From Moraxellaceae bacterium (GTDB lineage Bacteria; Pseudomonadota; Gammaproteobacteria; Pseudomonadales; Moraxellaceae): a DNA stretch of 64,000 bases. The translations under genes were made by a program, and so were the position numbers. Shown here in pieces: positions 29,513-39,678 of the stretch; the stretch's first letter is position 1, and each line of letters begins with the position of its first letter. The stretch is taken from NCBI GenBank assembly GCA_004173455.1, contig SECL01000019.1, positions 1 to 64,000 of the forward strand. The letters are read 5' to 3'. The notes beneath the pieces were generated by a model that did not search any database, was not told the DNA's origin, and saw only the letters and a program-made list of their open reading frames with translations.

Positions 29513-29596
29513 CTATCCACCAATTTTTTCCTGTCCTTATAATTGTCCCTATTCTTTGTTGTTGTATATCAGTATAAAACCCTATGTAGAGGCAAT

Positions 29597-29632
29597 AAAA
29601 AAGGCTTAAACCCTTTGGATTCAAGCCTTTAT
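29597..29632 (-). terminator. Ancestral tRNA-Leu terminator, displaced by the island
   Basis: AAAGGCTT (29600-29607) and AAGCCTTT (29623-29630) form a hairpin; on the minus strand it is followed by TTTTATTG. It lies about 45 bases downstream of the tRNA-Leu 3'-end remnant at 29676-29698, exactly where the tRNA-Leu terminator would have been before integration. Confidence 0.65.
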
Positions 29633-29678
29633 CTACCATATTTAAGTATATGGAGGTATACAATTTTATATAAATGGT

Positions 29679-29698
29679 GGGGCGAAGAGGCTCGAACT
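29679..29698. repeat. attL, left end repeat of the island
   Basis: GGGGCGAAGAGGCTCGAACT matches 19 of 20 bases of the repeat at 39599-39618, which is the 3' T-arm/acceptor part of tRNA-Leu. On the minus strand this copy runs into ACCA, the mature tRNA 3' end, so it is the displaced chromosomal end of the tRNA gene. Confidence 0.8.
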
Positions 29699-29937
29699 AC
29701 TCTTTTAATCCACTGTTATTTAAATAAATTATTTTAAAAAAAATTAAACAGGTACTTATTGAGGTACTCATTGAACTAGCCTACTTATCATATGAAATTA
29801 CAATGTCGCACTACTGCTTTAGTTACACAAAGAAATTTCATGCATAGCAACTGATGAATTGACTAGAGAGACTAAAGTTATTGGTTTAGGTTAAGGATAA
29901 TTTTTTTAAGTTATATTATCGTTCTATGGCTACAGTT
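29699..29937. other. Left end of the island, non-coding, with arm-type sites
   Basis: This AT-rich stretch holds AGGTACTTAT (29750-29759) and AGGTACTCAT (29762-29771), spaced 12 bases start to start. The same pair with the same spacing occurs at the right end (39462-39483). These are probably integrase arm-binding sites. No gene is seen. Confidence 0.6.
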
Positions 29938-31287
29938 TTATTTAATGTTTAATCTATCAAAGGCAAACAACTTAAGAACACTAGCACTCGGATAACTAGA
30001 TAAGCTTGCTACACCATTAGCTAAAACTATTGGCAATAAAGCATTTTTATATTTAACAGTAACTAATGAATGCAAGCCTTCAATAATTCTTTCGACTCCT
30101 ATTAAATCATTCGCTTGAGGATAATTCATATAATCATCATCTAAATTAGTTTTGTATTCATAAGGAGGAATATTTAAAACTATAGCAGTCTTACTATCAA
30201 CCTTAACCAAAACTTTTTCACCATAATTCGTTTTTAGTCCATACTCATTTTCACGGAAAGGAGCACACTGTACAGATTCACGAATATATTTATGAGTTAG
30301 AACCTTATAAGAGGAAAACTTTTGATTTAATTCTTTAGGCTCAATATGCTTTTCGATAGTTTGAAAAAACTCATCAAAAGCCCCGGTTTTTTCTTGCCCT
30401 ATTAAATAAACTGGATAATTTTGATCTTTAGAAAACTTTAAGAAAGCTCTTATATTCGGAACTAGTTTCGAATATTGACTTCTAAGACTTAATGGCCCAT
30501 CTTTAATAAAAAGTATGTGATTTAATTGAACTTTATCATTTTCCCAAAAATACCTTATTGCACTAAATAAGCTAATAGTTTCGTGAAGCAACATATAACT
30601 TGTCGCCAAACTATCAGGTGCAGCAAATTCGTTCATCTCCATATGGAAACCGATAATATCAGTTGAAAGAATCTCACCACTACAATGCGGGCATGTACTT
30701 CTATCAGTATTGTAAGGTAATCCCTCAATCTGTCTTAAGCATGACAAATGAGGACATTGAAATGCTGGCGATAAATTATTTTTTTGAGAATCCCATTTTT
30801 TGTATATAAGCCACTTGTAAGTCTCATAAATATGTCCATCTTGGGATGGATCATTAAAAGAATCAAAAATAATTCTTCGGACTGAATCATATAAACTATT
30901 ATCTTTAAGACGAATGTTTTTTAATGGAAAAACAGTTGCATGTAAATTTGCTGAATTTTCCATTAATTTTTTCATCTGTAATGGATGCGGATACTTTTTA
31001 TCGATAGTGTCCAAACTACTTTCATCTAATACAAAAAGCGCAGTTTTTACAAAAGCCAACTCTTTTTTGATTGGCCCCAATCCTATTAAAGAAGCGATAG
31101 AACCATCTACACAATAAATTAATTTAAAAGGCGACGCCTTATGCTCTACAGTATTCCAAGTAGAGAGGTCATCCACATTGGAATCATTAGCTTTTAATGA
31201 TTCAAATTCTTCAATTAATCGTTTAACATGATCACTTTTTAATACATCTAAATGACCAAGTTTTGAAGCCGTTTCGCCTTGATACAT
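29938..31287 (-). CDS. nurA: NurA-family nuclease with zinc ribbon
   Basis: This is a NurA-domain nuclease of 449 aa, partner of HerA-type ATPases, where the pair resects or degrades DNA. The first catalytic acidic motif is IYCVDGSIAS (Asp61) and a second is HILFIKDGPLSL (Asp263), matching the DGS and DG motifs of NurA. Between them sits a zinc-ribbon-like insert, C178-x4-C183 and C199-x2-C202, unusual for the family. ATG 31287 is chosen because TGAGG, overlapping the herA stop, lies 7 bases before it. It is the last gene of the dam-herA-nurA operon. Confidence 0.85.
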   Translation of the reverse strand: MYQGETASKLGHLDVLKSDHVKRLIEEFESLKANDSNVDDLSTWNTVEHKASPFKLIYCVDGSIASLIGLGPIKKELAFVKTALFVLDESSLDTIDKKYPHPLQMKKLMENSANLHATVFPLKNIRLKDNSLYDSVRRIIFDSFNDPSQDGHIYETYKWLIYKKWDSQKNNLSPAFQCPHLSCLRQIEGLPYNTDRSTCPHCSGEILSTDIIGFHMEMNEFAAPDSLATSYMLLHETISLFSAIRYFWENDKVQLNHILFIKDGPLSLRSQYSKLVPNIRAFLKFSKDQNYPVYLIGQEKTGAFDEFFQTIEKHIEPKELNQKFSSYKVLTHKYIRESVQCAPFRENEYGLKTNYGEKVLVKVDSKTAIVLNIPPYEYKTNLDDDYMNYPQANDLIGVERIIEGLHSLVTVKYKNALLPIVLANGVASLSSYPSASVLKLFAFDRLNIK

Positions 31288-31295
31288 AATTAGCC

Positions 31296-33293
31296 TCAAG
31301 AACCAAAATGCTTAACTTGGACAGGTACAACAAATCTATGTGATTGAGTCAACATTCTCATATAACCCGGAGTTTTAGAAGACAGAATATCCTGTTGAAT
31401 TCCATCATATGAAACATTTACCTTTCCTAAAGATCTCGCTTCATCCTGTGAAGAGAGATGACCAACAAAGAAATTTTCTGTTTGAGCTAACAACTCTTGA
31501 CTAATAGTACTCGGGCTTTGGGTAGAGTAAATCATCCCTATATGAAATTTAGCTCCCTCTTTTGCAAACCTGCTATATACATCCGTATTATCCTTGACAG
31601 TTCTTGGAAAAAGATTGTGAGCTTCTTCAAAAAATAGATTTATAAAATGCGATTCTAGGGTGTTACTAGTAAATTTACGTTCTTGTTCTTTAAATACTGC
31701 TGTTGAAATCATATTAGAAAAATATTTTCTTACCTTATCATCAGCACTACCTAGATCCAGAATTACTGTTTTTGAGTTATTTAAATCGTCAATAATTTCT
31801 TTTATTAGATTTGCTGCATGAGGTGAATGATATTGTTTATAGTCTGTGATCCATTGTGTTCCTCTACCAGTATTAGGATTAAGAAAAGTTAGCATAACTA
31901 TATCGTCACCATCAAATAATTCATTTTTTTGACCTGAAGTTGAAAGTAATGGATCATTAGAATTCAATACATATTTTGCCAGTGAGGCATACTCTCGCTT
32001 CATTTGCCCTAATGTTTTTGGCCTTGGGGGCACCCCTTCATCAGTATCTGATTCATTATCTATAAAAGCATAAACTTTTTCACGGACTTCGTCAGTAAAA
32101 CCCGGATCAAATCCATTTGGGCCATTTTTAACTGGTGGAATAAGAACTTTTAATTCAAGTTCATTTGCTTGAAATGCTGATTGATTAAGAATCGACCAAA
32201 ATAATTGAATTTTGCGATAAGCTCTAATTTTCTCACCAAAATTCATATTATTAAGAAGATCAAAGGTCGGAAGCTCTAAGTTTGCAAATGATTTTACATA
32301 GCCACTCAGATTACCTTCAGCTTGTAATAGTCCTCCTAATACTCTCATACCTTCTGATGGGTCTGTGTAAAAGTTTAAACGTAGCGGCTTAGACGGTGTT
32401 TCTTGCTTTTGAATTAGTGCATAGACTTGACAGTAATCATTATGTATTTCCCTAAGAGATATATTTTGATGATTTGTATTTGCATATTCACCATTGATAT
32501 CAAAAATTAGTTGTCCACATTTATATTCAGACTGTTGTGCTAAAGCCTCAATCGTGGCATTCGCCAGAATTTTGACTACATTGGATTTACCTAAACGGGT
32601 TTTACCAAACATTGCTGTCCTAGCACCGAGAAAATCTTTCAAGGATATTTGAACATCAACATCTACAATATTTGCCTTATTATTATTAAAAGGAAGGCGG
32701 CATTCGGTAAGTCTTAATTTACCAACGGATTGATTCAGTTCAGGCTTAACCATACCATTTATTATAATATTTAGAATTCTTTCATCAGGAGCGAAAACCC
32801 TATATCTGTGAGCAGATACTACAGCATTAATATCTCCTGAAAATTCTATTTTTAGAGCATCATCAGGATTTGGATAAAACATTCCCAATAAATCACAATC
32901 AATACTCCCCCATTGCAATTCACTAATTGTCCATCTATCCAATTCAGGCATACTTTTTTTATGTAATTCAAAATAAGTTTGTTGGACACTGTTTGTTAAT
33001 GGTGTTGGCGCTACCCCTGCTACTCTTAACAACGAAAAGTGTGGTGCTATACCTTCTAAGTCTTCTGGAACCATAATTAAAAACGAGCCACGTGGCATGC
33101 CACCTATGGCTTTTTTATAAGGATCACTTGTTATAATTCTTGCTGTATTAAATCCGATATCTATCACATAACCAGCAAATTTCCAATTATCAACACTACT
33201 TGTTAACTCTTTAGCTTTTTCCTCATCTAAAAATTGATTTAAAATTGATAATGGATTACCTGAAAATCTTGATTTTGTAAGAAAGTTATGCAT
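31296..33293 (-). CDS. herA: HerA-family DNA translocase ATPase
   Basis: This is a 665-aa FtsK/HerA-superfamily ATPase (DUF87). An N-terminal beta-barrel-like region (residues about 35-180) precedes the motor. The Walker A motif is GKTRLGKSN at 230-238 and the Walker B FFEEAHNLF at 554-562, with STQSPS as sensor at about 589. HerA hexamers pump DNA and regulate NurA. Its ribosome binding site TGAGGA overlaps the dam stop codon and its own stop overlaps the nurA leader, so the three are coupled. The gene is strongly AT-rich. Confidence 0.92.
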   Translation of the reverse strand: MHNFLTKSRFSGNPLSILNQFLDEEKAKELTSSVDNWKFAGYVIDIGFNTARIITSDPYKKAIGGMPRGSFLIMVPEDLEGIAPHFSLLRVAGVAPTPLTNSVQQTYFELHKKSMPELDRWTISELQWGSIDCDLLGMFYPNPDDALKIEFSGDINAVVSAHRYRVFAPDERILNIIINGMVKPELNQSVGKLRLTECRLPFNNNKANIVDVDVQISLKDFLGARTAMFGKTRLGKSNVVKILANATIEALAQQSEYKCGQLIFDINGEYANTNHQNISLREIHNDYCQVYALIQKQETPSKPLRLNFYTDPSEGMRVLGGLLQAEGNLSGYVKSFANLELPTFDLLNNMNFGEKIRAYRKIQLFWSILNQSAFQANELELKVLIPPVKNGPNGFDPGFTDEVREKVYAFIDNESDTDEGVPPRPKTLGQMKREYASLAKYVLNSNDPLLSTSGQKNELFDGDDIVMLTFLNPNTGRGTQWITDYKQYHSPHAANLIKEIIDDLNNSKTVILDLGSADDKVRKYFSNMISTAVFKEQERKFTSNTLESHFINLFFEEAHNLFPRTVKDNTDVYSRFAKEGAKFHIGMIYSTQSPSTISQELLAQTENFFVGHLSSQDEARSLGKVNVSYDGIQQDILSSKTPGYMRMLTQSHRFVVPVQVKHFGS

Positions 33294-33303
33294 TTTAATA
33301 TCC

Positions 33304-34104
33304 TCATATATTACATGTAATAATCAGCTCTTCATACCTATTTCTATTAACGCTATTAGCAGCTATACTACTATACCTTGATATTTCTTTCACACTAAAA
33401 TCATTACAATATAACTCTCTAATAGATTCATGATTAGCATTTGTAATAATAATTTTTACACCTCTTTTCCTTGCTCTATTTGCAGCTTTAGCTAAACGCT
33501 CTTGATCAGCCCATGAAAATAAAATTTCATTATATTTTATAAAGCCATTATTGTTATGTCTTACAGTATAAGGTGGATCTAAAAAAAGAAGATCTCCATC
33601 AGTAGACTCATCAACTAACTGCTCAAAATCGCCCCAGACTAGCTTAGAGCTTTGTAACGCTTTAGACCACTCATCCCATTTATCATTATCTTGAATTACT
33701 TTATTTTTAGTTCCAATAGGAACATTAAATTTACCTTTCAAATTTACACGATAAATACTATTAAAGCATGTTCTATTAAGGTAAATGAATTGAGCTGCTA
33801 TTTCAAGATCATCTTTAAATATTTGATCACGAACTAAATAATAATAACTTTTGGAATGATTATTATGATGAAATTTCAATAGTCTTACTACCTCCTTGTG
33901 ATAATTTTTAATAGCATTATAAGTAATAATTAAGTCTCTGTTAGAGTCTCCCAAAATGCTATAAGCCGGTTTTATCGAATAGAAAAAGCTTCCACCACCC
34001 AAGAATGGCTCAATATATCTACCGTGGAATGGAATATCTAGTAGCTCAGGAGCAACTTTCACTAACCAACGCTTACCACCAGTCCATGCTAAAAATGGAT
34101 TCAT
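33304..34104 (-). CDS. Dam-family DNA adenine-N6 methyltransferase
   Basis: This D12-class (group alpha) methyltransferase of 266 aa methylates adenine N6. N-terminal PFLAWTGGKRWLV and motif I YIEPFLGGGSFFY (30-42) bind SAM. NRTCFNSIYRVNLKGKFNVP (110-129) is the Dam/DpnM-type recognition region, which points to a GATC-like target. The catalytic motif IV is LFLDPPY (173-179). It is the first gene of the operon with herA and nurA. No restriction enzyme lies beside it, so HerA-NurA may be the effector it protects against (inference). Confidence 0.94.
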   Translation of the reverse strand: MNPFLAWTGGKRWLVKVAPELLDIPFHGRYIEPFLGGGSFFYSIKPAYSILGDSNRDLIITYNAIKNYHKEVVRLLKFHHNNHSKSYYYLVRDQIFKDDLEIAAQFIYLNRTCFNSIYRVNLKGKFNVPIGTKNKVIQDNDKWDEWSKALQSSKLVWGDFEQLVDESTDGDLLFLDPPYTVRHNNNGFIKYNEILFSWADQERLAKAANRARKRGVKIIITNANHESIRELYCNDFSVKEISRYSSIAANSVNRNRYEELIITCNI

Positions 34105-34308
34105 ATAACCTAAAATTATTTATTAATAAAATCTTGTGTCTTTTATGACATTTAAATCCTAACAGCTTTATAAATTTATACAATACACAAGCATAGCTCA
34201 TTGCTGTAAGAATTAGAAATCAGAAAGCTGCATAAGTAATTAAAATCATCAGCCCGCTACAATCAATACATGTTATTAATTATCATGCACTTACCAACAA
34301 GATAGCTC

Positions 34309-34572
34309 CTATGAATCTGACTTTTCCCTATGATTAATTTTATCAATCATACCATCAAATAATACCTGAGGACTGACACCTAACGCATCTGCAATCTTCA
34401 AAATATTTGCTAAGGTTAAATTACGCTTTCCTCTTTCAACATCTCCATAAAAAGTACGCTGTAAATTTTTTTCATGAGCAAAATTTTCCTGTGAAAATCC
34501 TGTCTTCTCCCTGTACCTACGGCAGTTATTTCCGAAAATAATAAAACGAGGATCATTATGTTCTTCTTTCAT
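34309..34572 (-). CDS. XRE-family regulator, possible R-M controller-type protein
   Basis: This 87-aa helix-turn-helix protein has IIFGNNCRRYREKTGFSQENFAH, FYGDVERGKRNLTLANILKIADALGVSPQVLF, the full Cro/C1-type domain. Size and sequence resemble controller (C) proteins of restriction-modification systems. The ATG at 34572 is chosen; the frame runs upstream to 34665. It is 200 bases upstream of the methyltransferase gene in the same direction and divergent from the membrane protein genes, so it could regulate both. Confidence 0.85.
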   Translation of the reverse strand: MKEEHNDPRFIIFGNNCRRYREKTGFSQENFAHEKNLQRTFYGDVERGKRNLTLANILKIADALGVSPQVLFDGMIDKINHREKSDS

Positions 34573-34743
34573 GGAATCTACAGTACAAGTTAAAAAATCA
34601 TGGTAGAAATTCGCCCTTGTATAAACCACCCTCAAATATTTATCCCTTATAAATATAACCCCCATAAAGATGACTTATTTTTAACTTGAAGGTATGATCT
34701 AGCTCTTGGTCAATAAGTATTTTAAGTTTTAAAGAGAACGATT

Positions 34744-35601
34744 ATGAATTTTCAGATACTCAACGGAGCAGGTTTAGACGGTGATACACTTTTTTTAAGT
34801 GACAACCACTATTTAACATTCAACCATCAAGGCAAAATGATCAGAATTCCAACTGGTAGCATTGCCAAGATTGAGAAAAATGAGGAATTTAAAAAGGAAG
34901 TATTTTTCACCATTACCTTTACTGACAATCAAACTGCCAAGGCAAAATCATCAAAGAATGATTATGAAGAGGTCTATAAGCTGCAATTTATCAATCCCAA
35001 AGTGCCTTTTACCATATCTGAAATTTCCTCCAAAGATTTTCTCATGGAACACAAGAAGTCCTTATTTGTTATAGGTCTAGTCATCTTATTTCTCTTATTT
35101 AAATGTTCTGGTAGTTCAGATTCTTCATCCTCTACTACATTATCCACCTCTAGCTTTTCCCCTCAAGAATGCAACTACCTTACTTCTTTTGGCCTGCAAA
35201 CTAATGCTTACCATCAACAGGAAGGTGAAGACTACATTTGTATTGCTGATTTTCTTGAAGTAGGCCAAGCAGATAACACAGGCAATGAAAGTAACTTGGA
35301 TTTTGCAGTTGAAGGTACAGCCAGCCAGATTACAGATGTTTATTTACGGGCTATTTATGGCAACAAGTCATCAAGTGCAGCAGCACGGGAGAAGTTTATT
35401 GATGCCAGTAAGGAATTAATTACTAGGACTACCAATCACCCCATCCCGAACAAGCTGTTGCAGGCCATTAAAAAAGGCAAGGAATATAAAGGCACGATTG
35501 ATGGCAAGAAAGTCACTTTAGAAATAAATCCAAGAGATAACTACAGTAAAGGCAAAGCATCCAACTATGGTTATGCACATCAACTAACGATTTACTATTA
35601 A
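34744..35601 (+). CDS. Single-pass membrane protein of the island, unknown
   Basis: I do not recognise this 285-aa protein. Residues 1-95 look like a small cytoplasmic beta-rich domain (IPTGSIAKIEKNEEFKKEVF). Residues about 106-123 form a transmembrane helix (LFVIGLVILFLLFKCSG), then a Ser-rich linker, then a domain of about 150 residues on the other side of the membrane (FAVEGTASQITDVYLRA). AAAGAGAACG precedes the ATG. It is divergent from the XRE gene and followed after 14 bases by another membrane protein. A membrane effector or sensor role is possible but unproven. Confidence 0.75.
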   Translation: MNFQILNGAGLDGDTLFLSDNHYLTFNHQGKMIRIPTGSIAKIEKNEEFKKEVFFTITFTDNQTAKAKSSKNDYEEVYKLQFINPKVPFTISEISSKDFLMEHKKSLFVIGLVILFLLFKCSGSSDSSSSTTLSTSSFSPQECNYLTSFGLQTNAYHQQEGEDYICIADFLEVGQADNTGNESNLDFAVEGTASQITDVYLRAIYGNKSSSAAAREKFIDASKELITRTTNHPIPNKLLQAIKKGKEYKGTIDGKKVTLEINPRDNYSKGKASNYGYAHQLTIYY

Positions 35602-35615
35602 AGAAGGAAAAAACC

Positions 35616-36005
35616 ATGGAATTTAATGGTGCTAAAGGCGCTTTAATTGCGTTAACTGCTATAGGACTAACAATTTTTATAGTTATCAAACTCTTTTCCA
35701 ATGTTGACATGTCTGCTTCAACACAGGCAACCGCACAAGAAGACGATGACTATTACCTGTCTGGCAAATATGGGACAATGAATCAATGCCTAAAAAGTGC
35801 TAAACAACATTTGAAAAAGCATCATCTTAAGTACAAGCTCACTGGTGATAAGCCGACTAGTGTATCAGCAACAATCTATCATCCTGATGGTTTTGAAATA
35901 ACAGGGATGAATAATTCCTTCAGTTGCACCCAAAAAGAAACTGGTACAGAAGGTGTTTATTACGAACTATTTATGTTTGTTCCACCTGAATACAGGAATC
36001 AGTAA
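35616..36005 (+). CDS. Small membrane-anchored protein, unknown
   Basis: This 129-aa protein has an N-terminal helix (GALIALTAIGLTIFIVIKLF, residues 8-27) acting as anchor or uncleaved signal. A soluble domain with two cysteines (MNQCLKSAKQHLKKH; FSCTQKETG) follows, suggesting a disulfide-bonded exported domain. AAGAAGGAAA precedes the ATG. It forms an operon with the preceding membrane protein. No family is recognised. Confidence 0.72.
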   Translation: MEFNGAKGALIALTAIGLTIFIVIKLFSNVDMSASTQATAQEDDDYYLSGKYGTMNQCLKSAKQHLKKHHLKYKLTGDKPTSVSATIYHPDGFEITGMNNSFSCTQKETGTEGVYYELFMFVPPEYRNQ

Positions 36006-36178: not shown

Positions 36179-36940
36179 TTACATAACTTTACAAAGCTTG
36201 ATTGATGAACCAAATGAATTTCGAGTCATGACACCTGCTTTTTGACTGGTTTTAGATAGATAACTGGCTCTGGTAAAAGCATCTTCAAATTCAGTTTTAA
36301 GATCATGATATCTAGCTTCGATAAAACCACCCTCTTCTGGTTTTTCAGTCTTCCTGTAATTTAACCTTGGGTTTTGGTCTTTACCATTTCGCTTATTTTT
36401 TCCCTTGTTGATTCCTTCAATTTTCTTAAAAGCATTGATTGACCGATACACAACTTCATCAATGCCAAATTGGTTATGTCTTAAATCAACAATAAACATG
36501 AAGTGGCAGTGATGGTAGTTAAGCATGATTTTACCTCTATCTCTTCTTATGCCTGCTGGCTTGAATTCTTTAAATTCAAAGGAATAAATATAATGAAACT
36601 CAGGTATTTTTCTTGATCGAAAGGAGCTAGTTTTCTCCCCTTTTAACTGTGCTTCTTCATATTTTAATATCCATTTTTCTTTTCTTTCTTCTTCGTATTT
36701 TTTCCATTCGGATTTCCATTTTCTTCTTAATACTTCAAGAAAAACACTTTTATTAAATTTATCTGGATCATAACTGAACTCTATTTGATACATTACTGGA
36801 TTAGTCATAGTCTCTCTGCAATGCTCAAGTATTTTTAATATTGATTCTAGATTCCTAGTGTTATACCAATACTCTAAGTTTTGTAAAACCTTATACCCTT
36901 TAAAAGTTTCTTCATAATTAATCAGGTAACCTTTTCTCAT
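36179..36940 (-). CDS. Gp2/YagK-YfjJ-type replication protein (HUH-like)
   Basis: The 253-aa basic protein resembles inovirus Gp2/YfjJ-type proteins found in P4-like satellites. Two features of rolling-circle initiators are seen: an H-U-H-like motif H144-C-H146 in YHHCHFMFIVDL, and a later Tyr227 with Lys230 in ASYLSKTS. It may nick and start replication of the excised element. An 11-base perfect inverted repeat lies 40 bases upstream of its start and could be the origin. The family call is from motif resemblance. Confidence 0.7.
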   Translation of the reverse strand: MRKGYLINYEETFKGYKVLQNLEYWYNTRNLESILKILEHCRETMTNPVMYQIEFSYDPDKFNKSVFLEVLRRKWKSEWKKYEEERKEKWILKYEEAQLKGEKTSSFRSRKIPEFHYIYSFEFKEFKPAGIRRDRGKIMLNYHHCHFMFIVDLRHNQFGIDEVVYRSINAFKKIEGINKGKNKRNGKDQNPRLNYRKTEKPEEGGFIEARYHDLKTEFEDAFTRASYLSKTSQKAGVMTRNSFGSSIKLCKVM

Positions 36941-37270
36941 AGCTTACTCCTATTATTATTGATAACTGATATTGATGTATTGTTAGAATAGGCATTTATA
37001 AGATGTATTAATAAATAGTATTCTAACAAATATCTAAAAGAACGCTGTTAAGCAGGCAGGCCAAAATAGAGTTATAGACCTTTAATGAATAGCGTTTGGC
37101 TAATAAATCAATGTGTGGCAACTCGCAAGACTTTAAAGCCTATTCACTTCATGCTTTTTTTTGCCATGAAAATAGCGCTTTCATTCCAGTCTGGGGTGTT
37201 TGTACCATCATGGCCTGAACTGCGCTAAAAACATGGTAAAAGCATGGCTAGAATTGATATTTAGATTGCC
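36941..37270. promoter_or_regulatory. Candidate origin or operator region
   Basis: TTGTTAGAATA (36980-36990) and TATTCTAACAA (37019-37029) are a perfect 11-base inverted repeat with a 28-base AT-rich spacer, just upstream of the Gp2-like gene. Several GCCATG/CATGGC motifs follow at 37160-37255. This 330-base gap has no gene. An origin for the Rep-like protein or an operator are the likely options. Confidence 0.45.
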
Positions 37271-37591
37271 TTAATTATCCTGTGATTCTTCTTTCTTTAT
37301 TCCAAGCTGCCTTAGCTGGCTTGCAATAGAATTTGCAAACTCAGTGATCATGGTTTCTAACCCTTTTAGCCCGTCAATATGACATGTTAGCACCTGATTG
37401 ATGAGCATGGCATGAACCAAAGCATTTAAACTAGGATAATATCCAATGGTGGTATACCTAATCTTTCCGATATTTTCAGGTTTTGCTTCTTTTAATGCAC
37501 CTACTTTATTTCCAATAACTCTCTTTTTTCTTAAAATAAAGTTGAATTCATCAGTACTGACACAATACTCATTATTTAAATCAATCTTCAT
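37271..37591 (-). CDS. Small island protein, DUF5405-like
   Basis: This 106-aa soluble protein has EYCVSTDEFNFILRKKRV at the N-terminus and YYPSLNALVHAMLINQVLT in the middle. The pattern resembles the small DUF5405-type proteins of P2/P4-like phages and satellites, where the function is unknown. The resemblance is weak and from memory. It lies between the Gp2-like and AlpA-like genes on the same strand, in the early region of the element. Confidence 0.6.
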   Translation of the reverse strand: MKIDLNNEYCVSTDEFNFILRKKRVIGNKVGALKEAKPENIGKIRYTTIGYYPSLNALVHAMLINQVLTCHIDGLKGLETMITEFANSIASQLRQLGIKKEESQDN

Positions 37592-37713: not shown

Positions 37714-37917
37714 TTAAGCTGTAGTTTGCTTTTGATTCCACCATTGAATTAATGACTGGTAATCAAAATAAACAGCACTCTGCTTGGTTATTCCATCCTT
37801 GATTGGACGGGGAAAGGTTGGATCATTATCAATAAGTTTATAAAGAGAATCCCTACCAATTGATAAGATAGTACAGGTTTCTTTAAAAGAGATACGGATT
37901 TTTGGAAGTGATTGCAT
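37714..37917 (-). CDS. AlpA-like excision/transcription regulator
   Basis: This 67-aa winged helix-turn-helix protein of the AlpA/MerR-like type has ISFKETCTILSIGRDSLYKLI, TFPRPIKDGITKQSAVYFDYQSLIQWWNQ, the usual AlpA layout. AlpA-family proteins activate integrase expression and element excision in P4-like elements and act as directionality factors. GGAGACC, read on the minus strand just before the ATG, is a strong ribosome binding site. It lies 194 bases after the integrase gene in the same direction. Confidence 0.85.
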   Translation of the reverse strand: MQSLPKIRISFKETCTILSIGRDSLYKLIDNDPTFPRPIKDGITKQSAVYFDYQSLIQWWNQKQTTA

Positions 37918-38111: not shown

Positions 38112-39440
38112 TCATGCCGTCTTAAAAAAATTAATTACTTGCGCATCATTGCGTTGTTGTTTGATTATCTGTCCATAATCATAAGGTGAAATAAATTGTT
38201 GACGATTATGATCTAAATAATCACTCCACCAATTCATCATACTTTTACGCTCAGCCAAGAACTCAGCCATATGTGTATAAGCGCCTCGAACCTCATTACG
38301 CTCCTTGTGGCTCATTTGGCGCTCTACAGCATCTTCACTGTATAAAGTAGATTGAATCAAAGCACTACAAGCCATTCCACGGAAACCATGTCCACATACA
38401 TCTAGTTTCGTGTTATAGCCCATTCTCTGTAATGCTTTATTGACTGTATTTTCACTAATAAATTTTTTAGGGTCATCACGACCGGGAAAGACGTTTTCAA
38501 GATGACCGCTATATTTTTGAATTTCACGTAAGATGGCAATGGCTTGAGGTGATAAAGGAACTAAATGTTCTTCCCCCATCTTAGCTCCACGATCAGAGTA
38601 GCGTACACCCTCAACAGCTTTTCTTGATGCAGGAATAATCCATTGTTGTTTCTCAAAATTTATTTCATGCCAACGTGCAAAACGGATTTCTGAAGAACGA
38701 ATGAACACATTTAAAGTTAATAAAGTGCATAACTTGGTTATCGGTGCTCCACCCTTGTAATTATCAATACGCTGAAAGAAGTCAGGTAGGTATTCATGCT
38801 TTAGCTGAGGATAGTGTGTTTTTTTCTTAGCAATTACTACCCCATCCATCTCCCTTGCTGGATTATGCCTTACGTAGCCATTTTGGATTGCATAGCTAAA
38901 TATTCTGACCAAGTTTGCCTTAATATCACGGGCAACCCGGTTAATTCCCTTTTGATCAATAACAGTAATCGCTTTGGCAATATGTAATGGCTCAACCTCT
39001 TCAATAGGCATATGCCCTATGATAGGAAACAAATGATTCTCAAATTTACGCATTGTTTTCTTACCCGTATCATCACCCCACTGGCCTTTATTAGTGACTT
39101 CGGCATGCCAAGCACGAGTAACTTTTTCTAATGAATGGGCGTTTTCTTTTTTAATCTTGGCAAGCTCTAACTGTTCTTTTGGATCAAGTCCGTTTGCCAA
39201 CATTGCTTCAAATTCGCTTCTTTTTTTTCTAGCCTCTACCAACTTTAAAGCCGGATACTCACCCATTTTTATAATTTTGAGTACACCTAAATCATTTTTA
39301 TACTTGTATCGCCATGTTTTTGTACCTGAAGGACGAACAAGTAATATCAAACCGCCACCATCGAATAGTGAATATTCTTTAGTCTGCGGCTTAGCAGCAT
39401 CAATTTTTGAAGGATTCAATGGTATGACTAATCTTGCCAC
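38112..39440 (-). CDS. int: Tyrosine integrase, P4 type
   Basis: This tyrosine recombinase of 442 aa integrates the island at tRNA-Leu. The N-terminal DUF4102 arm-binding domain covers about residues 1-90 (YSLFDGGGLILLVRPSGTKTWRYKY). A SAM-like core-binding domain follows. The catalytic domain has Arg in RSSEIRFARW, HGFRGM as the H-x-x-R box, and a Tyr near the end in VRGAYTHMAEF, with the P4-type tail MMNWWSDYLD. It reads away from the tRNA-Leu gene in the same direction, so the tRNA promoter may now drive it. Confidence 0.95.
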   Translation of the reverse strand: MARLVIPLNPSKIDAAKPQTKEYSLFDGGGLILLVRPSGTKTWRYKYKNDLGVLKIIKMGEYPALKLVEARKKRSEFEAMLANGLDPKEQLELAKIKKENAHSLEKVTRAWHAEVTNKGQWGDDTGKKTMRKFENHLFPIIGHMPIEEVEPLHIAKAITVIDQKGINRVARDIKANLVRIFSYAIQNGYVRHNPAREMDGVVIAKKKTHYPQLKHEYLPDFFQRIDNYKGGAPITKLCTLLTLNVFIRSSEIRFARWHEINFEKQQWIIPASRKAVEGVRYSDRGAKMGEEHLVPLSPQAIAILREIQKYSGHLENVFPGRDDPKKFISENTVNKALQRMGYNTKLDVCGHGFRGMACSALIQSTLYSEDAVERQMSHKERNEVRGAYTHMAEFLAERKSMMNWWSDYLDHNRQQFISPYDYGQIIKQQRNDAQVINFFKTA

Positions 39441-39441
39441 A

Positions 39442-39483
39442 AATAAGCACCTATCAGTTTTAGGTACTTATATAGGTACTTAT
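39442..39483. repeat. Right-end integrase arm-type sites
   Basis: AGGTACTTAT occurs at 39462-39471 and 39474-39483, start-to-start 12 bases, as at the left end. An inverted variant, ATAAGCACCTAT, lies at 39442-39453. The sites overlap the int start region, which suggests integrase autoregulation. Confidence 0.6.
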
Positions 39484-39596
39484 TTTTGAGCGATATGTCA
39501 AGATATGAACACTTATACAACTATAAGTTTTTCTATAACTCTTTATTTTTATTATTTAATTTAAGCCTATTACAACATATAACTACATATATAGAG

Positions 39597-39678
39597 TGGG
39601 GGCGAAGAGACTCGAACTCTTACACCTTGCGGCGCTGGAACCTAAATCCAGTGCGTCTACCAATTCCGCCACGCCCCC
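39597..39678 (-). tRNA. tRNA-Leu (TAG), 3' end supplied by the island
   Basis: The minus-strand sequence folds as a long-variable-arm tRNA: acceptor GGGGGCG/CGCCCCC, anticodon TAG (39642-39644) in GATTTAGGTTC, variable arm, T-arm AAGAG-TTCGAGT-CTCTT, discriminator A at 39597. The next bases read CTC rather than CCA. The ACCA end is found instead at the left end of the island (29675-29678), showing that integration replaced the 3' end, so CCA must be added enzymatically. A TATGAT -10 lies at 39689-39694. Confidence 0.93.
39599..39618. repeat. attR, right end repeat of the island
   Basis: GGGGCGAAGAGACTCGAACT lies inside the 3' part of tRNA-Leu and matches the left repeat with one mismatch. 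Confidence 0.8.

Follow-up and report, generated by a model that had tools for sequence, protein, structure and literature searches.

The core of a small defence island, integrated at a tRNA-Leu gene of a Moraxellaceae bacterium, includes a protein that is related, at great divergence, to the inovirus Gp2/YagK_YfjJ_C proteins (PF11726) and is most likely a single-tyrosine HUH nickase. We consider it somewhat better than an even bet that this protein (P0001) would act on the excised island by rolling-circle copying, and that a perfect inverted repeat upstream of its gene is more likely regulatory. The evidence comes from the window (the whole 64,000-nucleotide stretch analysed, positions 1 to 64,000 of contig SECL01000019.1), from related loci, and from profile and structure comparisons.

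Borders and gene content of the island

G+C content drops from ~45% in the window to ~32% between a tRNA-Asn (29054) and a tRNA-Leu gene (TAG; 39596–39678, reverse strand), the latter being the integration target. An att repeat inside the 3' end of the tRNA-Leu gene (39599–39618, forward strand) has a distal counterpart, identical at 19 of 20 bases, at 29679–29698 (forward strand). Comparison with three genomes of the same genus (G001, G002 and G003) revealed an empty site in G001, where the left flank (29532–29698, 87% identical) joins the tRNA-Leu segment (39587–39678, 97% identical) with a 32-base overlap; in G002 and G003, within the loci compared, the left flank aligned over a 37-base piece only. 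The att repeats and the G001 empty site together delimit an element of ~9,920 bp. Repeats of the AGGTACTTAT type near its right (39462–39484) and left (29750–29772) ends, both on the forward strand, are probably integrase arm sites.

Starting from the tRNA-Leu end, the reverse strand encodes a tyrosine integrase (442 aa; 38112–39440), an AlpA-like regulator or excisionase (67 aa; 37714–37917; Pfam 18.8 bits, cut-off 21), a DUF5405/phrog_154-like protein (106 aa; 37271–37591) and P0001 (253 aa; 36179–36940). The AlpA-like protein resembles, by eye, the AlpA of a sibling island in the same genome, which passes the Pfam cut-off. The DUF5405-like protein matches a 'replication initiation protein' of PHROGs (E 2.1e-17) and falls just below the Pfam DUF5405 cut-off; apart from it, no other replication gene was recognised in the island. 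Two forward-strand genes follow, for a small protein with an N-terminal hydrophobic segment (129 aa; 35616–36005) and a protein with a hydrophobic segment (285 aa; 34744–35601), both segments being recognised by eye. The remainder, again on the reverse strand, consists of an HTH regulator (118 aa; 34309–34665), 68% identical over 80 aa to that of the sibling island, and of cargo genes for a Dam-family adenine methyltransferase (266 aa; 33304–34104), a HerA-like ATPase (DUF87; 665 aa; 31296–33293) and a NurA-type nuclease (453 aa; 29938–31299).

These last four genes stand in a row (29938–34665), and it is possible that they form a HerA–NurA restriction system with its own methyltransferase. 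Five plasmid proteins match the 453-aa NurA-type protein, and three of these carry the annotation NurA; a DUF87 (HerA-type) gene lies near the NurA gene in two plasmid records, from Deferribacter (plus a methyltransferase) and from Tolypothrix (plus an HTH gene). The defence cargo that the earlier note had assumed beside the Gp2-like gene is indeed there, as defence-type genes of an integrase–AlpA island. The element combines the marks of a mobile island, namely a tyrosine integrase, an AlpA (below its cut-off), a Gp2-like protein and flanking direct repeats.

Remote kinship of P0001 with Gp2 proteins

The motif pair from which the earlier note had started, an HCH and a later Tyr-x-x-Lys as in rolling-circle initiators, is present in P0001 as H144-C145-H146 and Y227-x-x-K230 (YLSK), with a glutamate at position 122. 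Shuffling P0001 5000 times produced the pair in 8.5% of cases (3.3% with the middle residue restricted to VILMFYWCA), and the pattern H.H...Y..K was found in 3 of the 50 window open reading frames of at least 150 aa, the Gp2-like gene counted among them, so that the motif by itself is no proof of an HUH protein. No family in the domain and profile libraries matched P0001 above cut-off, 'Gp2' being the label given by the earlier note. Against PF11726 it scored 11.9 bits (E 0.22), short of the curated Pfam cut-off of 25.8, and we therefore file it as a remote relative rather than as a PF11726 member.

Profile comparison provided a firmer link. An hhalign profile of P0001 and two relatives, neither of them fetched through PF11726, aligned with eight PF11726 proteins at a probability of 96.7% (E 3.4e-10), and a five-member profile reached 97.7% against Gp2 proteins; P0001 alone reached 56%, with the alignment confined to the C-terminal block. 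For comparison, the branch profile reached 0.6% and 0.2% with two proteins that occupy the same gene slot but are unrelated. Across an 11-row alignment of the branch, E122 and H144 are invariant, and R224, Y227, K230 and K234 are kept at 90% or more, one row being truncated. The second histidine (H146) is replaced by glutamate in two of the 11 rows (L058 and L060), giving HLE; the third metal ligand is presumably E122. These two plasmid relatives (L058, 2862–3470; L060, 5253–5828), together with L059 by eye, carry His-Leu-Glu in place of HxH, and directly after the HLE gene the three have similar genes of 91 aa. Perhaps such relatives have a changed metal site or are inactive forms.

When Pfam matches were accepted at E up to 1, PF11726 matched 7 of the 11 branch members, P0001 included, and REP_ORF2-G2P, a model which we take to represent an HUH domain, matched three (best E 0.0067). 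Both models matched all eight classical Gp2 members at the same threshold, REP_ORF2-G2P with a best E of 1.9e-7, and with the member shown in full just below the cut-off. It is because the REP_ORF2-G2P model matches the classical members and 3 of 11 branch members that we take the step from Gp2 to HUH. PHROGs gave no useful match to the 11 branch rows, nor did PDB sequence searches yield anything useful; the NCBI-derived record identical to one plasmid relative is annotated 'inovirus-type Gp2 protein'.

Aligned by profile, P0001 and the PF11726 proteins share the HxH, a SYLAK-type tyrosine block and an FGxS end, whereas in P0001 the RxDL block is missing and a longer segment precedes the conserved glutamate. 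The profile link, the conserved Glu, HxH and YxxK, and the annotation by others tie P0001 to the Gp2/YagK_YfjJ_C proteins. Its description as an 'HUH-like Gp2' therefore stands as a remote Gp2/YagK_YfjJ_C kinship with motifs conserved across relatives, and falls short in that P0001 itself lies below every family cut-off. The same genome holds six PF11726 matches on contigs C73, C18, C4, C63 and C74, none of them being the window gene; those on C73 and C18 lie ~4 kb from tRNA-Arg and tRNA-Pro, with small HTH-like genes upstream (by eye).

Predicted fold

The model of P0001, built from a six-row alignment (pLDDT 63.7), runs in the order helix, strand, helix, strand, strand, helix, strand, helix, with Glu122 and the HxH on successive strands and Tyr227 directly after helix 218–226. 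None of the 50 PDB structure matches listed for it was an HUH protein; the matches were RRM-like (Cas7, EF-1 beta), with no PDB Foldseek match at E ≤ 0.001, and three BFVD rows were named replication proteins, none of them under E 0.001. We do not take the missing HUH rows of this predicted structure as excluding an HUH fold.

Modelled from a seven-row alignment (pLDDT 66.6), the closest relative ranked AAV2 Rep first and second among PDB structures in VIA (Z 6.9 and 6.8), with superpositions at rmsd 3.6–3.7 over 124–127 aligned. B19 NS1, a REP-associated transposase and pMV158 RepB appeared in lower VIA rows, and by title 13 of the 50 rows, all within rank 25, are presumably HUH proteins; all Z values were below 8, and the HUH rows were tied with unrelated folds. 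The first BFVD match was a viral replication protein (probability 0.98, E 2.6e-3). The structure prediction that the earlier note had proposed for an HUH fold gave a divided answer, in favour through the tied first rank of AAV2 Rep for the closest relative and without an HUH row for P0001's own model; we regard an HUH fold of the Gp2-like protein as likely. It could still be argued that HxH and YxxK came together by chance in a protein that is no nuclease, as the shuffle rate and the weak fold matches of P0001's own model would allow; with the motifs conserved across 11 rows and a profile link to Gp2 proteins, we regard this as very improbable. The gene product is probably an HUH nickase belonging to a module for mobilisation or replication.

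The upstream inverted repeat

The earlier note had described a perfect inverted repeat about 40 bases upstream of the start, and one is found 39 bases before the ATG of the Gp2-like gene. Its left 11-bp arm, TTGTTAGAATA, lies at 36980–36990 (forward strand) and its right arm, the complement, at 37019–37029 (reverse strand), enclosing a 28-nt loop that holds a further inner stem. Within one mismatch, TTGTTAGAATA occurs at two places in the whole window, which are the two arms, against 1.9 expected by chance, and it is hence the pairing of the arms that counts and not their occurrence. Perfect arms of at least 11 bases with a loop of up to 60 appeared in 18 of 1000 dinucleotide shuffles of the 330-bp gap, and perfect arms of that length with a loop of up to 40 appeared somewhere in 21 of 100 shuffled islands. 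The island has a second 11-bp inverted repeat inside a coding region (30921–30966), so repeats of this length are not rare in such AT-rich DNA. Folding of the strand around the repeat, with the inner stem, was better than in 200 of 200 shuffles (z −3.4).

Conservation of the repeat was sought across related loci. The exact TTGTTAGAATA arm was absent from 66 of 68 loci, the remaining two being the window's own locus; within one mismatch, L094 (the sibling island) and L056 had no copy, and L062 and L057 each had a lone arm, far removed from the gene. Upstream repeats of any sequence, at p ≤ 0.05, preceded 13 of 37 Gp2 genes and 14 of 80 control genes, a comparison of raw counts whose rows are not independent, given near-copies among the 37 (L062/L071, L005/L030); the 37-gene count omits L019, L020, L023, L026, L027, L034, L048–L051, L074, L085 and duplicate loci. 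Gp2 genes are preceded by such repeats more often than other genes are, yet the repeats are not specific to them. A first test of the 14 closest loci found a repeat that was reached by at most 3 of 60 shuffles in four (the window, L064, L066 and L067) and not in the other ten. The repeats of L066 and L067 are of unrelated sequence and lie 25 and 43 bases before the gene, and the test somewhat favours hairpins at those loci, of unrelated sequence. Several other upstream repeats, being short-loop hairpins far from the start, may be terminators.

The proposal that the inverted repeat is the origin of the protein gained no support from this comparison: its sequence was found in no relative, upstream repeats are not specific to Gp2 genes, and we dropped it as a conserved origin. 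Origins of HUH enzymes frequently form hairpins and may diverge quickly. Here the repeat is more likely to be regulatory or particular to the lineage than to be a nick site, and regulation is the simpler reading. In particular, we give about even chances to a role in control of the gene, with the repeat as an operator or a 5' leader hairpin to which AlpA, the HTH regulator or P0001 would bind; its place 39 bases before the start codon, its lack of counterparts in relatives and the upstream repeats of 14 in 80 other genes are in keeping with this, whereas a scan for sigma-70-type promoters gave no match at the repeat, and the hairpins of L066 and L067 sit where an origin hairpin could also sit.

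Distribution and genetic settings of the relatives

Direct searches with P0001 returned no match among phages, viral contigs or genome contigs, and one weak Acinetobacter match among plasmids; they matched 2 of 58 relatives, 1 of 390 genomes of the order and 2 of 369 of the class, its own genome counted. The branch profile matched 17 of 299 genomes of the family (own counted), some of the weaker matches being classical Gp2 proteins. Viral scans with the classical Gp2 alignment and with two plasmid relatives found none, a scan with the L073 protein found L073 and L074 only, and one with the L060 protein found L085. The L085 gene (8977–9579), of the HLE type, directly follows a thymidylate synthase-like gene (by eye) on a 62-kb AT-rich virus contig. 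Some relatives are degraded and contain stop codons. This extreme divergence and scarcity, with the degraded relatives, would fit a decaying relic, that is, a fixed defence island whose nickase is inactive by now, but the 253-codon frame is intact with all motif residues present, and so are the integrase and the att repeats, which leaves a relic quite improbable.

The island core as a whole recurs. An island of Acinetobacter calcoaceticus ANC 3811 (L062/L069), located at tmRNA and with other cargo, carries the integrase–AlpA–DUF5405–Gp2 core, and its L062 copy shows 56% identity to the window's island in AlpA (the L062 homologue itself having no Pfam match), 39% in the DUF5405-like protein, 30% in the integrase and 28% in the Gp2-like protein. 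The four-gene core is also present in the IMG/VR records L071 and L072, and an AlpA-like gene accompanies the Gp2-like gene in L056 and L057, the former also with an integrase (by eye).

The DUF5405-like gene itself has 77 matching phage records. In the P2-like phage SEN1 a relative stands one gene away from the gene that nicks the origin; a Schitoviridae phage with a DUF5405/phrog_154 gene has no nicking gene annotated nearby. The sibling island, on contig C65 of the same genome (L094, 2078–7652) at tRNA-Leu(cag), carries an integrase, AlpA, phrog_154 and an HTH regulator, with no recognisable Gp2 and no HerA or methyltransferase gene recognised. A 188-aa gene in its Gp2 slot was considered as a hidden Gp2 relative and rejected (profile probability 0.6%). 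Persistence of this sibling without Gp2 argues against a strict dependence of the integrase–AlpA–phrog_154 core on Gp2.

Other members of the branch are found on small plasmid-type records: seven contigs of 3.7–7.6 kb, four of them with identical ends, two additional named plasmids, and one record of 9.7 kb that carries head and terminase genes. Another Rep stands beside the Gp2-like relative on all ten plasmid-type records tested, namely Rep_3 in L058, L061, L065, L066 and L073, Replicase/PriCT in L059, L060 (the named plasmid NZ_CP028556.1) and L063, and an annotated Rep in NZ_CP080578.1 and CP033544.1, the Gp2 match of the last being weak (29%). In an eleventh record, L074, one gene is alike L073's Rep by look. 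Given this second Rep, the Gp2-like protein is not the sole initiator there; the ten records and the Gp2-less sibling are evidence against a simple 'replication' role.

We also weighed an HUH nickase that serves transfer by another element, through a relaxase-like or packaging-related nick, rather than replication. The accompanying Rep on 10 of 10 records is in its favour, as are two relatives whose small records carry genes for heads and a terminase, with none seen for tails, and the phage transduction of one kindred island reported in the available part of PMC12595487. Against it, no coupling protein or relaxosome gene lies beside the gene in the loci read by eye, PLSDB types the three named plasmid records as non-mobilizable, and the sole other replication gene recognised in the island is the DUF5405-like one, a PHROGs 'replication initiation protein'. 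On balance we find a pure transfer role unlikely and keep to nicking for rolling-circle copying of the excised island.

The two head-gene records, L073 (9672 bp) and L074 (6167 bp), both contain head and terminase genes and a Gp2-like relative, with no tail genes seen; L073 has a Rep_3 initiator by Pfam, and its capsid gene is seemingly split over the ends of the record (by eye). From their gene content they look like plasmids making their own heads. The same head-gene cluster stands beside a RepM gene on a 132-kb Acinetobacter schindleri plasmid (L101, 167–9185; NZ_CP044475.1), with a terminase 94.8% identical; its Gp2 slot holds another gene, of 374 aa, which was tried as a hidden Gp2 and rejected (profile probability 0.2%).

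Proposed mechanism and significance

Under our preferred reading, the integrase and AlpA would excise the island as a circle, the Gp2-like protein would nick one strand of that circle and so start rolling-circle synthesis, and this synthesis would yield additional copies, or concatemers, for packaging by a helper phage. The DUF5405-like protein, by its neighbourhood in phage SEN1, may assist the nicking or replication step, and the methyltransferase, HerA and NurA cargo would be carried along with the island. The suggestion of the earlier note that replication after excision raises the copy number of the defence cargo is compatible with such a mechanism. We counted for this explanation the conserved four-gene core in a second island, the G001 empty site and the behaviour of the Pseudomonas island I55 described below; and against it the sub-cut-off scores of P0001, its HUH-less model, the Rep on 10 of 10 plasmid-type records, HLE in 2 of 11 rows, the Gp2-less sibling and the DUF5405 phages without a nearby nicking gene.

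Islands with integrase, AlpA and Gp2 are already known, as the part of PMC12595487 available to us attests. New, as far as searched, are three points: databases miss this Gp2 branch on score; in islands it is paired with a DUF5405-like gene; and it is also present on plasmid-type records, the small head-gene ones among them, where a Rep is already in place. A literature search pairing inovirus Gp2 with rolling circle found no paper. More speculatively, the divergent branch could be a shared 'second replication mode' of Moraxellaceae hitchhikers, and perhaps of wider groups, by which islands, small Rep_3/Replicase-type plasmids and head/terminase records change from being maintained to making rolling-circle concatemers that undergo phage-type packaging; we rate this as rather improbable.

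In plain terms, the gene probably encodes a DNA-nicking enzyme for copying or moving a defence island. Gp2-like genes recur in widespread integrase–AlpA islands, and this branch offers a small case on amplifying, moving or packaging such elements; if it is true that the gene does any of these, defence genes could gain copies at the moment of phage attack.

Comparison with known elements

The closest relative of the island, that of ANC 3811, has the same four-gene core with different cargo, and differs in its tmRNA site, in its changed gene order and in having no upstream repeat beyond chance. With the replication region of P2-like phages (gpA, DUF5405) the island shares a DUF5405 gene near an origin-nicking gene, but the nicking gene has ~740 codons there against 253 here, and the likeness is one of gene neighbourhood. 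Gram-negative phage-inducible chromosomal islands (PICIs), as described in the available part of PMC6092414, likewise combine int and AlpA in a small island, and AlpA drives the induction of a PICI there; they differ in having a pri-rep primase and terS, neither of which was recognised in this island, and no primase-type match was found among the ten larger island proteins scanned.

A further parallel is provided by the Pseudomonas IntY–AlpA islands I23, I44 and I55 as presented in the accessible portion of PMC12595487: they contain a tyrosine integrase, AlpA, an inovirus Gp2-like protein, an HTH protein and phage-defence cargo, have no recognised genes for autonomous transfer according to that portion, and are given no function for their Gp2-like gene in it. 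I55 is reported there to excise, to form circles or concatemers and to be transduced by a jumbo phage. The present island differs in its tRNA-Leu rather than tmRNA site, its HerA–NurA cargo and its size of ~10 kb, and it has a DUF5405-like gene, of which the same portion makes no mention for I23, I44 and I55. It shares with them the integrase, AlpA, the Gp2-like protein, the HTH protein and a cargo of defence genes.
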